Virus record (IMG/VR): IMGVR_UViG_3300025872_000381 | Coordinates: 1-21,021 of that record | From: a virus | DNA: 21,021 nucleotides | Direction: 5' to 3' (one strand) | Shown: piece by piece, positions 5,989 through 21,021 of the stretch | Position numbering within the stretch: position 1 is the first letter of the stretch | Layout of the letters: each line of letters starts with the position of its first letter | Position numbers and translations under genes: made by a program | The notes under the pieces: generated by a model | What the model saw: the letters and a program-made list of their open reading frames with translations, nothing else | Told to the model about the DNA's origin: nothing | Database searches by the model: none

Positions 5989-6353
5989 GCGACCAAGAGC
6001 ATTTGGAAAGATTACGCCACCATGTGGAGGCGGCATTAGAATACTCTGGAGGCACACACAATTTTGAAGATATTGCCGAGATGGTCCAGGATCACAGATT
6101 GCAACTGTGGCCAGCCAAAGACTCGGTGGTATTGACAGAGATCATTGTCTATCCCAGGCTAAAGAATTTGCATTATTTTCTGGCTGGTGGCGACCTAGAT
6201 GAACTCTCAAGGATGAGACCATTGATCGAATCCTGGGGCAAGTCTGTTGGCTGCACCAGGGTGACTTTGGCAGGCCGAAGAGGCTGGCAAAAGACATTTT
6301 TGAAAGACGAAGGTTACAGCCCACAGTGGTCTGTACTGGCAAAAGATTTATAG
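5985..6353 (+). CDS. GNAT-like acetyltransferase-fold phage protein
   Basis: A 122-residue protein. The central part, VVLTEIIVYPRLKNLHYFLAGGDLDEL, then MRPLIESWGKSVGCTRVTLAGRRGWQKTF and DEGYSPQWSVLAKDL, resembles the C-terminal half of GNAT folds ('E...P....l....agG', helix, 'a...G...v...grrgw...l...Gf'). Such proteins recur beside tail and ejection genes in podovirus-like phages. The acetyl-CoA pyrophosphate loop (R/Q-x-x-G-x-G/A) is not obvious, so enzymatic activity is uncertain and it may be a structural or assembly factor. It starts in an ATGA overlap with the large structural gene and ends 10 bases before the first ejection-type gene. Confidence 0.6.
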   Translation: MSDQEHLERLRHHVEAALEYSGGTHNFEDIAEMVQDHRLQLWPAKDSVVLTEIIVYPRLKNLHYFLAGGDLDELSRMRPLIESWGKSVGCTRVTLAGRRGWQKTFLKDEGYSPQWSVLAKDL

Positions 6354-6363
6354 GGGAAAGATT

Positions 6364-7359
6364 ATGGCAACTTCACCGGCACTAGCATGGTCACTGGCCA
6401 ACGGCATCAGCCAAGAGCAATTTGACAAGAACATTGTTGACGCAATCAAACAAGGCGAGGCTCAAGGCTTGAGCGATGCCCAGTTTGAAAGCCTGATGAA
6501 TCAATACCAGATCAGCGCTGCTGATGTGGCCCGTGCCACTCAATCAAGCCCTGCGGCTATTCAAGCCCGCATGGAAGCGGCAACGCCCACAACGGCCACT
6601 GAGATTGCCTACAACCAGGCAGCCATGGATGAGCTGGCAGCGCGTGAAGCGCAGTGGGCCAAGCAGCAGCAACAAAATGCGACTAATTGGGCAGCGCAGC
6701 AGCAGGCCAACACGACCAACTGGGCCGAGCAGCAGCGCTTGAATGAGATCAGGAATCAGCAGCAGATTGCAGCCAATCAAAAGGCTTATGAGGCATACCT
6801 GGCCAATCAGCAGAAGTTGGCAGCCGAGCAGGCCGCAAAGACCACAGGCTTTCAGACCAGTGTTGGCACAACGCCATTCGCAAATGCCACCCAAGGCTTT
6901 GCTCAGAACTTTCAGAATTACCAGTCAATTGCACCTGGTGCGCAGTACAACCCAGCAGTCACTCCTGGTGGCGCTTCTCCTTACAGCCTGATCATGGGCC
7001 AGATGAAGCCCATGGGCAACCCATACGCAGGCGTGGTGGCAGGCACAGCAATGGGTGGCTATAACCCAGCTCTGTACGACCAAATCGCTGCTGCCAATAC
7101 GGCCAAGACAGTGGCAGAGCAAGCGGCTGCAACGCAAAACAATCAGCAAGAATCAACAGGCATGGCCAAAGGCGGCATGGTCCATGGCGGCCTGATGTTT
7201 GGTGGCAACCCTCCAGGTCCTGATGATGGCGCTGTCAACCTTGACCTTGGCGAGTATGTGATCAAGAAGTCTTCAGTCGATAAGTATGGCAAGGGTCTTC
7301 TGGACATGATCAATGAAGGCAAAGTGCCTGCCAAGAAAATGAAATCTTTACTGGGATAA
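6364..7359 (+). CDS. Ejection/internal-virion type protein with an 11-residue Gln-rich repeat
   Basis: A 331-residue protein in three parts. (1) Residues 1-60 are a small helical domain, LANGISQEQFDKNIVDAIKQ...LSDAQFESLMNQYQISAADVARAT, a module seen singly or repeated in virion proteins. (2) Residues about 85-160 are a long Gln/Ala/Asn coiled-coil with 11-residue periodicity. (3) A Gly/Pro-rich region follows, with the C-terminal motif GPDDGAVNLDLGEYVIKKSSVDKYG and LLDMINEGKVPAKKMKSLLG; 'GEYVI.K..VDKYG' is a recurring phage structural C-terminus. It is the first of four adjacent large Ala-rich genes, as in podovirus ejection cassettes. AGGGGAAAG precedes the start. The function is inferred from composition and context. 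Confidence 0.7.
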   Translation: MATSPALAWSLANGISQEQFDKNIVDAIKQGEAQGLSDAQFESLMNQYQISAADVARATQSSPAAIQARMEAATPTTATEIAYNQAAMDELAAREAQWAKQQQQNATNWAAQQQANTTNWAEQQRLNEIRNQQQIAANQKAYEAYLANQQKLAAEQAAKTTGFQTSVGTTPFANATQGFAQNFQNYQSIAPGAQYNPAVTPGGASPYSLIMGQMKPMGNPYAGVVAGTAMGGYNPALYDQIAAANTAKTVAEQAAATQNNQQESTGMAKGGMVHGGLMFGGNPPGPDDGAVNLDLGEYVIKKSSVDKYGKGLLDMINEGKVPAKKMKSLLG

Positions 7360-17332: not shown

Positions 17333-19510
17333 ATGAAACACCAAACCAAAGGAATTTCAGTGCCAATCATAACTGAAACACCCCAAAACGATACATTCCA
17401 GCAGTCGCAGACTGTGGCCTGCAAGATAGGCGCTGTCGCACCTGATGCAGTCTTTTGCACCTTTGCCCTGCAAGGCTCTAAAAAGATTCCATTCAAGCGA
17501 AGTGGCCAAGGCGTGGCACGCGACACTGACCCGTCAGACCTCTACACGGCTGAAGACATTTGGTCCATGGATCAAGCGCCTCACGGCCAATATCTTGGCC
17601 TTGTCCAGCAGCGCCCCATCATCAGCCCATTAGGCGACTTTTTGGTCTGCCTGGATGTGGACATGAAGCACGCATCTGGCCCGACCAATGTGGCCATCCA
17701 GCGCATGGCCAAGTTTGTCAAAGCCAACAACATGCTGACCGAAGTGTCAGTCAGTGGCCGTGGCCGCCATGTGTTCCTATGGGTCAAAGCGCCAGCAGTC
17801 AAAGACCTGGTGTTGCCCAAGTACAAACTGGGTGGTGGCCAAGAGCTTGAAGTATTCGGCCTGCCAAACAGTGCAGGCAAGTCAGTGCTACTCAGTGGCA
17901 ACCAGGTGGCCGGGGAATTTCACGCTGCCGTAGACCTCTACGATTTACTCAAAGACTGGGGCATCATCGAGCAGCACCAGCTCCAAGAGCCAAAGCCAAC
18001 AGCTCCAAGTCAATCCTTTGACTTCAGCCAATTAGGCTCAAGACTGGATGACAGCGACCTAGATCGCGCCATCAAGGCTTTGCACCATATTTCCCCAGAC
18101 TGCGATTACGACCAGTGGATTGAGCTGGGCCAGGCGCTGCACACAGAATTTGGCGAGGCAGGCATGGGACCATGGATGCAATGGTCCATGGCTGGCCAGA
18201 AGTTTGCCGGGACCAAAGACATCGAGACCCACTGGAAGAGCTTTCACCAGGGCAAAGGTGTTGGCATCGGCACACTATTCAAGCATGCCAAAGACGCTGG
18301 CTGGGAGCCACCAACAAAACAAACTGAACGCAAATCAGCCGTTGAAGACTTTGCAGCTGTGATCAGCCAGGCCCAAGCGCCAGCACAGCCCGATGCACCA
18401 GCTGCTCAAGCTGACCCATCTTGGCCAGAGCTGCAACTTGACCTGACCCATCTCAAGCCAATCGACTATCTGATCGAAGGCTTCATGGCCCACAGTTTCT
18501 TTGTCTTGGCAGGCCAACCAGGAGTGGGCAAGACCACAGCGATTCTCTCCATGTCCATGGTCATGGCTGGGTTTAACTTGGAAGGCTGCGAGATATATGC
18601 CAAGACAAAGAGAAAGACGATTATTGTTACCGAAGACAGTGAGCAGATAATCAGGACTCTTTTCGCATATTCAAAGCATTTCAAAATCAATAACCTCAAC
18701 GACTGGTTTGTGGTTATTGATGCCAGAAGGTCTGAAGTTAAAGATTTACTCAGGCTTGCACATAATATTGAGAAGCACACCATCAACGGCATCAGGCCAT
18801 TGTTGGTGCTGGACACGGCCAATGCGACCATGGATATTGAAGATGAGAACAACAACTCAGAGGTCGGCAGCTTCATTGCAGCCATCAAGCAGACCATCTT
18901 CATTCAGCAAAAAGCGCCAGTCTGTATCCTGACCCACTTAAACAAGGCAGTATCGCGCCAGGAGTCAGACGCAATGGCCCGTGGTGCAAGTGCATTCACA
19001 GGAGATGCAACCCTCACAGGCGTGCTTTTCCTGGATGATGACAACCAACGCTACCTCAAGCTGACAAAAACGCGCTATGAGCCAGTTTTCAGAGAGATCC
19101 GATTCGATTCCATAACATTCCCAGAACTGGTGACAACGCCAAACAACGACATCCAAGAGATCATCTGCCGGGTGGCCATCCCATCCATGTCTTCAGAGAA
19201 AGAGCGCATGGCTGCCAAGCAATCCATGCAAGACAGCGCTAGGGAACAAAGAATCCAAGACAAGTGCGATGAGGTCTGCAACCATGTCCAGTCCATCATC
19301 AACGACAAAGGCAATGTGATCATGCGCAGAGGGCCAGGTCGCCCCAACATCCCAAAGGAACTCCAAAACCACTACCAACTGGACTGGACTGAAATCTTTT
19401 CCAGCGTCAAAGGCAGCGATGCAGGCTATATCCGCAAGCACATTGGCACGGCCATATTCACAAGATTCGCACCAAACGAGCCACTGTCTGGCTGGGTGAA
19501 GTTGGCATGA
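17333..19510 (+). CDS. Replication protein: Prim-Pol, PriCT-2 and AAA helicase fusion
   Basis: A 725-residue protein. N-terminal primase-polymerase (AEP-type) region: FLVCLDVDMKH with Asp108 and Asp110, SVSGRGRHVFLWVKAP (139-154), and QELEVFGLPN...SVLLSGNQVAG (170-194), matching the 'D.D', 'sG.G.H' and 'iE...R...lTG' motifs. PriCT-2-like domain at 245-325: IKALHHISPDCDYDQWIELG, WSMAGQKF, HWKSFHQGKGVGIGTLFKHAKDAGW. C-terminal RepA/AAA-25 helicase: Walker A AGQPGVGKT (393-401), Walker B LLVLDT (490-495), and TANATMD, then ILTHLNK (532-538). It primes and unwinds at the phage origin. The iteron array begins 5 bases after its stop, so the protein probably binds there. The RBS is weak (CAAGGG at 17317-17322). 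Confidence 0.9.
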   Translation: MKHQTKGISVPIITETPQNDTFQQSQTVACKIGAVAPDAVFCTFALQGSKKIPFKRSGQGVARDTDPSDLYTAEDIWSMDQAPHGQYLGLVQQRPIISPLGDFLVCLDVDMKHASGPTNVAIQRMAKFVKANNMLTEVSVSGRGRHVFLWVKAPAVKDLVLPKYKLGGGQELEVFGLPNSAGKSVLLSGNQVAGEFHAAVDLYDLLKDWGIIEQHQLQEPKPTAPSQSFDFSQLGSRLDDSDLDRAIKALHHISPDCDYDQWIELGQALHTEFGEAGMGPWMQWSMAGQKFAGTKDIETHWKSFHQGKGVGIGTLFKHAKDAGWEPPTKQTERKSAVEDFAAVISQAQAPAQPDAPAAQADPSWPELQLDLTHLKPIDYLIEGFMAHSFFVLAGQPGVGKTTAILSMSMVMAGFNLEGCEIYAKTKRKTIIVTEDSEQIIRTLFAYSKHFKINNLNDWFVVIDARRSEVKDLLRLAHNIEKHTINGIRPLLVLDTANATMDIEDENNNSEVGSFIAAIKQTIFIQQKAPVCILTHLNKAVSRQESDAMARGASAFTGDATLTGVLFLDDDNQRYLKLTKTRYEPVFREIRFDSITFPELVTTPNNDIQEIICRVAIPSMSSEKERMAAKQSMQDSAREQRIQDKCDEVCNHVQSIINDKGNVIMRRGPGRPNIPKELQNHYQLDWTEIFSSVKGSDAGYIRKHIGTAIFTRFAPNEPLSGWVKLA

Positions 19511-19515
19511 AAAGG

Positions 19516-19586
19516 CTAATGCGGAAAGGCGGAACTAATGCGGAAAGGCGGAACTAATGCGGAACTAATGCGGAATTCCGTATTAG
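19516..19586 (+). repeat. Tandem CTAATGCGGAA iteron array
   Basis: Two 19-bp units CTAATGCGGAAAGGCGGAA (19516-19534, 19535-19553) are followed by two 11-bp units (19554-19564, 19565-19575), the last joined tail to tail with an inverted copy TTCCGTATTAG (19576-19586). The joined pair is a 22-bp palindrome with one mismatched pair of positions. Spacing is 19, 19 and 11 bases. Confidence 0.9.
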
Positions 19587-19604
19587 ACAATGGCAGGGAT
19601 TGTT

Positions 19605-19635
19605 GGATAAGTGGGGTCTTCAGACCCACTTATCC
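19605..19635. repeat. Hairpin carrying a DnaA box on its edge
   Basis: GGATAAGTGGGGTC (19605-19618), loop TTCA, then GACCCACTTATCC (19623-19635): a 13-bp stem with one bulged G. The right arm runs into TTATCCACA (19630-19638). No U-run follows, so an intrinsic terminator is unlikely, although the hairpin could still slow transcription leaving the replication operon. Confidence 0.75.
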
Positions 19636-19667
19636 ACAGACCAGTCTCGGCTTGCAAGCTATTGCGG

Positions 19668-19718
19668 TTTCTAATGCGGAAAGGCGGAAAAAACCTTAAG
19701 GGGTTTCCGTATTAGAAA
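19668..19718. repeat. Inverted iteron pair forming a 15-bp stem
   Basis: TTTCTAATGCGGAAA (19668-19682) and TTTCCGTATTAGAAA (19704-19718) are complementary at 14 of 15 positions; the remaining pair is G-T, a wobble in RNA. The 21-base interior contains a second GGCGGAA and the palindrome CCTTAAGG. The left arm repeats the 19-bp unit of the tandem array exactly (19671-19689). Confidence 0.85.
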
Positions 19719-19749
19719 CGAGCATTTGATGGTCCAACACAGAAGAAAG

Positions 19750-19769
19750 TTATCCACATGTTATCCACA
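19750..19769 (+). promoter_or_regulatory. Two direct DnaA boxes
   Basis: TTATCCACA at 19750-19758 and at 19761-19769, the same orientation, 2 bases apart. Both are exact matches to the bacterial DnaA box consensus TTATNCACA. The second lies within the first codons of the next gene, whose ATG is at 19758, so host DnaA binding could also affect its expression. Confidence 0.75.
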
Positions 19770-20072
19770 GAAACAGAATTTGTTGAAGATGATCGGGTTT
19801 TCTGCCAAAACTGCGCTAATGCGGAAATGGTCGACATGAAGCAGTCCATGCCAGCAGACCAGATGGAAAAGCACCGAAAGGTCAACGCAAAACCTTTGCA
19901 ATGGATGTTTGACCAGGCAAAGATTAGGAATGGATGGGCGACAGTCACTTGGACCGAGCATCAGTGCAGCCGAACTGGCTTTGCTGCATTCCCGACCGAT
20001 GTGAAGCACCGATGCCACATGTACCAGGCCAAACCCTCGGCATTAGAATCCGAGGAATGGTGGTTGACATAA
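19758..20072 (+). CDS. Small Cys-containing phage protein, possible zinc binder
   Basis: A 104-residue protein. Residues 16-19 are CQNC, followed by MVDMKQSMPADQMEKHRKVN, KPLQWMFDQAKIRNGWATVTW, then CSRTGFAAFPTDVKHRCHMY. The C-x2-C plus two later Cys and several His suggest a zinc site. No family is recognised. The ATG at 19758 keeps the CQNC motif, but its coding start overlaps a DnaA box and no clear SD is present; a later ATG at 19828 would lose CQNC and seems less likely. An iteron copy at 19816-19826 is translated as part of it (ANAE). It overlaps the VRR-NUC gene by up to 16 bases. Confidence 0.6.
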   Translation: MLSTETEFVEDDRVFCQNCANAEMVDMKQSMPADQMEKHRKVNAKPLQWMFDQAKIRNGWATVTWTEHQCSRTGFAAFPTDVKHRCHMYQAKPSALESEEWWLT

Positions 20073-20440
20073 AACGCAAGCGAAAAAGCATTGAACACAT
20101 TGAACAAGTCAAGGTGGTGCAGCACATTCGAGCGTTTTATCCTGACACCATCATTGCAGCGATACCGAATGGAGGCGATAGAACGGCCTCAGAGCGCGTT
20201 AGGCTGCATTCTGAGGGTGTACTGGCAGGGATGCCTGATTTGTGTGTCCTGGAGGCCAAAAACGGGTTTCATGGATTGTTTGTGGAGATGAAGACAGACA
20301 TTGGTAAGGTTTCGAGCAAACAGAGCGACATAAAATTGCAGTTAAATGCAAAAGGGTACAAGGCAGTGGTCGCAAGATCAGCTGCTGAAGCAATCAAAAC
20401 AATTGAGGAATATCTGAATGGCACGCAACACATTGGCTGA
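20057..20440 (+). CDS. VRR-NUC domain nuclease
   Basis: A 127-residue stand-alone VRR-NUC protein from the ATG at 20057. Motifs: EHIEQVKVVQHIRAFYPDTIIAAIPNGGDR, RLHSEGVLAGMPDLCVL (Asp61), HGLFVEMKTDIGKVSSKQ (Glu77, Lys79 and Gln90) and GYKAVVARSAAEAIKTIEEYL. This is the PD-(D/E)XK-type core (D...E-x-K...Q) of phage VRR-NUC enzymes, which act on branched or flapped DNA. GAGGA lies immediately before 20057, so the TTG at 20063, with normal spacing, is an alternative start. The frame extends upstream to 19934, but that part is the shadow of the preceding gene. It overlaps the terminase gene by 23 bases. Confidence 0.9.
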   Translation: MVVDIKRKRKSIEHIEQVKVVQHIRAFYPDTIIAAIPNGGDRTASERVRLHSEGVLAGMPDLCVLEAKNGFHGLFVEMKTDIGKVSSKQSDIKLQLNAKGYKAVVARSAAEAIKTIEEYLNGTQHIG

Positions 20441-20900
20441 AATTGCCGACCAGGGCGCTGCAAACATCGCAGCAGCACAAGCCAGGAAGGCTGAAGTCAG
20501 CCTGGCCAATAAAGCGATACACAAGTTTGGTGGTGAAGATGCCGTGATTGAATTCATTGCATCGGGCGGCACGATCTCCGCACTGTGCAAGCTATTGGGG
20601 GTGGGGAACACCACATTCGACAGATGGGTGGAAAAAGGAGGCGAGGCACGCATGGCTGCCTACGCGCGCGCCCGTGTGCGCGCAGGGCAGAGTTTAGCAG
20701 AGCAAACCATCGATATCGCAGACGCTGCAAGCCCTCAAGAGGCGCAAGTGGCCAAGCTGCGCGTGGACACCAGGCGCTGGCTGGCCAGCAAGCTCTCAGA
20801 GGAATTCAGCGACAAGCAACAGCCATTGGTCAACATCGACCTGGGCAGCATGGCGCTCGATGCACTGCGAAAGCGCAGCGTGACATTTGATGAAAAGTGA
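20418..20900 (+). CDS. terS: Terminase small subunit
   Basis: A 160-residue protein. Residues about 35-72 form a helix-turn-helix (GGEDAVIEFIASGGTISALCKLLGVGNTTFDRWVEKG). YARARVRAGQSLAEQTIDIADAASPQEAQVAKLRVDTRRWLASKLSEEF follows, the helical part typical of phage small terminases of the 'DRW......YARAR...A....E....iaD......aKlrvDtRkW.as' type. It recognises packaging DNA and recruits the large subunit, expected past the right edge. GAGGA at 20404-20408 gives good spacing to the ATG. The stop at 20900 is followed by 120 bases without a gene, containing the second DnaA-box cluster. Confidence 0.85.
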   Translation: MARNTLAEIADQGAANIAAAQARKAEVSLANKAIHKFGGEDAVIEFIASGGTISALCKLLGVGNTTFDRWVEKGGEARMAAYARARVRAGQSLAEQTIDIADAASPQEAQVAKLRVDTRRWLASKLSEEFSDKQQPLVNIDLGSMALDALRKRSVTFDEK

Positions 20901-20943
20901 ATACCGAAGCACTCAGTCACTTTATACAATGACCATTATGTTA

Positions 20944-21021
20944 AGTGGATAAGTTGTTATCCACAGAAAAAGTAATGCTCTGGTGTTACTGATGCAGTTA
21001 TGCACAGCAATCTGTGGATAG
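20944..21021. promoter_or_regulatory. Second DnaA-box cluster, two inverted pairs
   Basis: The first pair is AGTGGATAA (20944-20952; one mismatch) facing away from TTATCCACA (20957-20965), an 8-bp perfect inverted repeat with a 4-base centre. The second pair is TTATGCACA (20998-21006, which fits TTATNCACA) facing TGTGGATAG (21013-21021; one mismatch). The cluster lies in the non-coding 20901-21021 stretch and may continue past the window edge. No reading frame is seen here. Confidence 0.7.

Follow-up and report, generated by a model that had tools for sequence, protein, structure and literature searches.

In the window, the whole 21,021-base stretch of viral DNA analysed here, a gene for a 725-residue protein combining PrimPol, PriCT_2 and RecA/DnaB-like helicase parts is directly followed by an array of short repeats and DnaA boxes, and then by a small ORF and the genes for a VRR-NUC nuclease and the terminase small subunit (TerS) (Table 1). 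Other neighbouring genes are of replication or recombination type, coding for an ssDNA-binding protein, an SNF2 helicase and an exonuclease, in keeping with an origin nearby. An initial annotation had listed six direct and two inverted repeats with three perfect DnaA boxes, in an array starting 5 bases after the stop of the primase-polymerase-helicase gene, and a pattern scan recovered all of these elements in place. Six copies of CTAATGCGGAA lie on the + strand and two inverted copies, CTAATACGGAA, on the minus strand, and the DnaA boxes, TTATCCACA, start at 19630, 19750 and 19761, the whole set of eight repeats and three boxes spanning 19516-19826. As the stop codon ends at 19510, the spacing of 5 bases to the first repeat is exact.

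Table 1. Positions of genes and sequence elements at the repeat locus (window coordinates)
Feature	Position	Strand	Remarks
PrimPol-PriCT_2-RecA/DnaB-like helicase fusion, 725 aa, candidate initiator	17333..19510	+	PriCT_2 E 8.6e-19, AAA_25 E 3e-16
C-terminal domain, aa 625-725, proposed iteron reader	19205..19507	+	identity predicts word class; model pLDDT 89
First iteron block	19516..19586	+	direct 19516, 19535, 19554, 19565; degenerate 19524, 19543; inverted 19576-19586 (minus strand); geometry conserved in relatives
Hairpin, 12-bp perfect stem	19604..19636	+	arms 19604-19615/19625-19636; 3' arm has most of DnaA box 1
DnaA box 1	19630..19638	+	TTATCCACA; in hairpin; conserved in relatives
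Second iteron block	19667..19719		direct 19671-19681, degenerate 19679-19689, inverted 19705-19715 (minus strand); together a 16-bp inverted repeat
DnaA boxes 2 and 3	19750..19769	+	at or overlapping next ORF start; conserved in relatives
Small conserved ORF, 104 aa, no family match	19758..20072	+	does not track word class (AUC 0.61)
Outlying direct copy	19816..19826	+	within next ORF; many relatives have a copy, not all
VRR-NUC nuclease	19934..20440	+	does not track word class (AUC 0.50)
Terminase small subunit, Sf6 type	20418..20900	+	does not track word class (AUC 0.52)
Second DnaA-box cluster behind terS	20944..21021		kept in 4/5 genomes; single box in G009

Eight exact 11-mers within 316 bases are far above the rough chance expectation of about 0.02 for the whole record and both strands. 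The 21,021-base record contains no further exact copy, and a reversed-pattern control gave no match. Three degenerate copies and a hairpin holding a DnaA box had been overlooked in the initial annotation. Each degenerate copy (GAAAGGCGGAA, 8/11 bases identical) lies 8 bp from an intact one (19524, 19543 and 19679, relative to 19516, 19535 and 19671). Because these +8 copies are perfect in sister phages, the conserved geometry is 0/8/19/30 with an inverted copy at 41; the window array has one extra 19-bp duplication, resulting in 0/19/38/49 with the inverted copy at 60. As in iteron origins, short direct repeats are thus gathered at one locus beside a replication gene, with DnaA boxes close to them. 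Read by eye, the array includes no clear AT-rich stretch that would serve for unwinding, a point against an origin; the clearest AT run lies about 1.6 kb away, in a sister contig.

The AlphaFold model of the 725-aa protein matches the NrS-1 PrimPol (N300; Foldseek E 2.6e-8), indicating a PrimPol catalytic domain. Weaker fold matches are to DnaB/KaiC, and a DnaB_C sequence match is also present. The helicase part, with its AAA_25 and DnaB_C matches and DnaB/KaiC fold, is therefore not of the SF3 (D5-type) family, and PriCT_2/PrimPol stands in the place of a Toprim primase. Confidence in the full-length model is modest (mean pLDDT 67), the full-length profile has no match among PDB sequences, and matches to plasmid relatives are mostly limited to the PriCT_2 part. 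Modelled separately, and with higher confidence, the C-terminal domain begins with a long helix and a strand, followed by a helix-turn-helix-like pair of helices and a final strand. For these approximately 100 residues, Pfam, PDB-sequence and Foldseek searches gave no convincing match, and a winged-helix fold is consequently a guess. The primase and helicase parts of a P4 alpha-like fusion are thus present, and the C-terminal part is a putative origin-binding domain on the basis of its helix-turn-helix-like model and of the covariation described below.

About 110 related loci, with 50-100% protein identity to the PrimPol-helicase, were collected from IMG/VR scans (31, then 80 loci) and from further queries with L040 and L113, which added loci including 35 of a distant clade; the MAG contig L113 and MW202879, a complete phage record entered as circular, were also included. 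L113 (CAINTF010000009.1) is binned as an Acidimicrobium MAG and holds a 58% relative; it is probably a misbinned phage contig, so that the host cannot be inferred from it. In every relative, close ones included, whose contig reaches the corresponding place, the array lies behind the gene, so that the proposal of the initial annotation passes one of its own refutation checks, a lack of the repeats in close relatives. In the 17 longest related contigs class-word matches are confined to this locus. A search for close DNA matches to the array in cultured phages gave none. The same layout was also sought in the distant PrimPol phages Torfinnsbu, Acjo_20 and VP58.5 and was rejected, as their layout differs. 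Close to the primase gene, Torfinnsbu and Acjo_20 do carry tandem repeats of 8 bp (L267:3719-3746 and 6336-6459; L268:3314-3343), with the period of the +8 pair in the window phage.

The 11-bp words of these arrays fall into four main classes: CTAATRCGGAA (class A), GTAATGCGGTA (class B), GTAAA[CG]CGGTA (class C) and, in the distant clade, TCGRAGATACC-type words unrelated to the others (class D); three loci have the word TAATCCGGT. Across the four main classes, the copies inside one array switch word together while the spacing stays. The geometry is 0/8/19/30/41 at 9/9 class B and 36/37 class C loci, and 0/19/30 with an inverted copy at 41, the +8 copy being degenerate, at 25/30 class A loci. 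MW202879 has an unrelated word, yet the same 8/11/11 spacing when its sequence is read by eye. The fixed G-to-A difference of the inverted copies, first seen in the window, holds up among relatives: over 26 distinct class A arrays, position 6 is G in 75, A in 23 and C in 4 direct copies (n=102), and A in 50 and G in 1 inverted copies (n=51). This orientation-linked base bias is also seen outside class A: the first inverted copy of class B arrays carries C in place of the G found in direct copies, and some class C arrays likewise show a difference between the two orientations. In the distant-clade arrays (L114-L148), the word core varies (GGAGATACC vs GGCGCGACC) with the TCG and ACC ends kept, which offers a second test case for a code relating domain to word.

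The hairpin between the two iteron blocks is likewise conserved. As single-stranded DNA, the region 19560-19740 folds 7.4 SD better than shuffled sequences (z -7.4), and a stem with a DnaA box in its 3' arm folds in every relative examined except L088, where the search anchor fell elsewhere, and L095, where the sequence is too short. Pairs were counted on individual folds because the MAFFT alignment of the hairpin shifted its bulge. The stem body is swapped as a unit, occurring as GTGGG/CCCAC, GTAGG/CCTAC, AATGGG/CCCATT, AAGGG/CCCTT, CTTGGGGA/TCCCCAAG or CCTGTGGA/TCCACAGG; in L147 the DnaA box itself is altered, with a compensating change in its partner. Such whole-stem compensatory changes suggest that the paired form is functional, either on one strand or as a cruciform. 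No RNA element of Rfam and no tRNA matches the locus. The A site of the ABC primosome offers a precedent, its DnaA box being likewise carried in a hairpin stem (PMC6127211); a corresponding function would here be an analogy, with the difference that the phage supplies its own helicase and primase. A hairpin with a host DnaA box is thus conserved next to a primase-helicase that the phage itself encodes.

Which protein reads the words was approached by measuring how well protein identity predicts a shared word class (expressed as AUC; 75 class A-C loci, which are related by descent and hence not mutually independent). For the C-terminal domain of the PrimPol-helicase, the AUC is 0.993-0.994, and 0.997 over all 112 loci. 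Upstream parts of the same protein give 0.48 (PrimPol), 0.53 (PriCT), 0.88-0.89 (ATPase/helicase) and 0.91 (linker), and the downstream genes 0.61 (next ORF), 0.50 (VRR nuclease) and 0.51-0.52 (TerS, its variable N-terminal 60 residues included). Among 238 within-class-conserved columns, 34 track the class, all at aa 626-724 and none at aa 365-624, where helicase columns are partly excluded by construction because class B mixes two helicase types. The nine class B (GTAATGCGGTA) phages share one C-terminal type, with a helicase of the class A type in five and of the class C type in four. In sliding comparisons of DNA identity, a cassette of approximately 19130-19730 breaks on both sides and ends before terS, and against the two helicase backgrounds its left border is at aa ~622, just before the C-terminal domain. 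Natural recombinants have moved this domain jointly with the array between the two helicase types, which looks like an exchange of the origin and its reader as a single cassette. The relation between domain and word is not a simple code: L189 is an exception in degree, its word, GTAAACCGGTA, belonging to class C while its C-terminal domain has diverged (~54% identity to the class C type). For word position 5 (T or A), inspection by eye revealed no simple correspondence with a residue, L189 and L255 breaking the pattern.

Linkage may give part of this covariation, because the C-terminal coding part adjoins the array. The array could accordingly be an origin at which a different protein, of phage or host, recognises the iterons, the C-terminal domain following by linkage alone, since recombination at the origin would tend to carry the adjacent coding part along. 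This explanation is unlikely: the ORF that adjoins the array just as closely at its other end does not track the word class, the left border recurs at aa ~622 against two helicase backgrounds, a concerted change of 6-9 sites needs a co-changing reader, and no other tested gene tracks the class.

Genome-scale composition points to the same site. A change in GC skew at the array, a check proposed with the initial annotation, was found as a minimum of detrended cumulative skew in all five long genomes, at 27, 27, 27, 199 and 241 bp from the array, with the maximum 10.7-12.5 kb to its right. These genomes are 36.3-37.3 kb in length, two having terminal repeats of 91 and 97 bp and MW202879 being circular in its record; as four of the five are close relatives and the signal is modest, the skew is support rather than proof. 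Its polarity suggests that synthesis proceeds mainly rightward.

The repeats could instead be operators of a regulator, through which, for example, the replication gene represses itself or the following genes are controlled, with no origin at the locus. Plasmid initiators often regulate through similar sites, the repeats lie between genes with the second block preceding the next ORF, and TTGACA-like motifs occur in sister clade arrays. Regulation of this kind as the sole role is nevertheless improbable, because the array follows the gene with the tracked C-terminal domain rather than preceding it, the region 19300-21021 has one promoter-like match (on the minus strand and far from the array) vs 1.4 in shuffled sequences, and both the DnaA-box hairpin and the GC-skew minimum would be left unexplained. 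That the repeats are a pac/cos packaging site read by TerS, encoded 0.6 kb downstream, is highly improbable and was rejected: repeats are typical targets of TerS-type proteins, and a pac site is often found close to terS, but TerS identity has no predictive power for word class, the recombination cassette stops before terS, and the GC-rich stretch behind terS is a better candidate.

The array is thus most probably a phage replication origin that is recognised by the C-terminal domain of the PrimPol-helicase, with host DnaA as a likely partner. The proposal of an iteron-type phage origin made in the initial annotation is supported by the single site per genome, the skew minimum and the covariation with the domain of the adjacent replication protein, all of which fit an origin read by the phage's own protein. 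The accompanying assignment to a short-tailed phage is indirectly supported by an SU10-type portal in a sister contig. In a possible mechanism, the C-terminal domain would bind the 11-bp iterons, spaced 8/11/11 and closed by the inverted copy, which would bring the helicase ring, of RecA/DnaB type, onto the DNA. Host DnaA would occupy the hairpin box and the two boxes past the second iteron block and help in origin opening or protein loading; once single-stranded, the hairpin may provide a site for single-strand initiation of the DnaA or the primase type. The PrimPol domain would then make the primer, and synthesis would run mainly to the right.

The proposed origin could work like those of P4 alpha, pRN1 or RSF1010, by analogy, being built differently in each case. 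P4 alpha unites primase, helicase and a winged-helix origin-binding domain in one polypeptide and binds origin repeats (PMC4234260). The window protein resembles it in joining primase and helicase beside candidate origin repeats, but P4 alpha has a Toprim primase, whereas the window phage has PrimPol/PriCT_2, a RecA/DnaB-type helicase, and DnaA boxes including the DnaA-box hairpin. In pRN1 ORF904 plasmids and Bordetella phage BIP-1, the proposed origin likewise lies immediately 3' of the PrimPol-helicase gene and a stem-loop is important (PMC4234260); these have an SF3 helicase with no iteron origin found, in contrast to the iterons, DnaA boxes and RecA-type helicase of the window phage. The RSF1010 oriV has iterons and, as initiation sites for a primase, hairpins; a helicase also takes part, and RepA, RepB' and RepC serve it as three separate proteins (PMC4234260), whereas the window phage has a single fusion, no stand-alone protein for iteron binding having been identified. 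NrS-1 polymerase shares the PrimPol fold and the union of PrimPol and helicase in one protein, its helicase part being hexameric. It has an SF3 helicase and recognises an 8-nt sequence occurring twice in the genome, with no iteron array reported (PMC7102993), unlike the RecA/DnaB-type helicase and iteron array described here. In the PLE RepA/ori system of Vibrio cholerae, a matched initiator and its iterons are exchanged as a replication module (PMC8263062), similarly to the joint swap seen here; PLE is a satellite with a RepA_N initiator and an N-terminal reader, whereas the window origin belongs to a phage with a different initiator family and a C-terminal candidate reader. A possible reason for such swaps is that they evade incompatibility or an attack directed at the iterons, with PLE as the known case.

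In the literature searched, which covered few subscription papers, no system was found that joins a PrimPol and a RecA-type helicase with both iterons and a DnaA hairpin. We tentatively consider, as a rather doubtful extension of the origin reading, a free-standing phage with an origin of hybrid type. Its self-contained PrimPol-helicase would read its own iterons via a C-terminal domain that can be exchanged, domain and origin moving as one specificity cassette, and the DnaA-box hairpin, kept by compensation, would be a single-strand site for host DnaA entry. The ~110 natural pairs of initiator domain and DNA word, natural domain swaps among them, should make a phage initiator recognition code readable and testable, and they provide a defined candidate origin for an uncultured, apparently common phage group, the window phage being from freshwater.

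Several minor observations concern the flanking regions. In an identical sister contig (L263:4530-4770), the DnaA-box cluster behind terS is followed by a GC-rich palindromic stretch and then by a long AT-rich run; in MW202879, the GC-rich and AT-rich parts are kept without DnaA boxes. The region may contain a packaging site, a late promoter or an unwinding element. Among relatives, TerS is highly variable in its N-terminal 60 residues (window 20418-20600), independently of iteron class. At the structural/lysis end of the record, an HNH_3/AP2-type homing-endonuclease-like gene occupies 715-1218 of the window.
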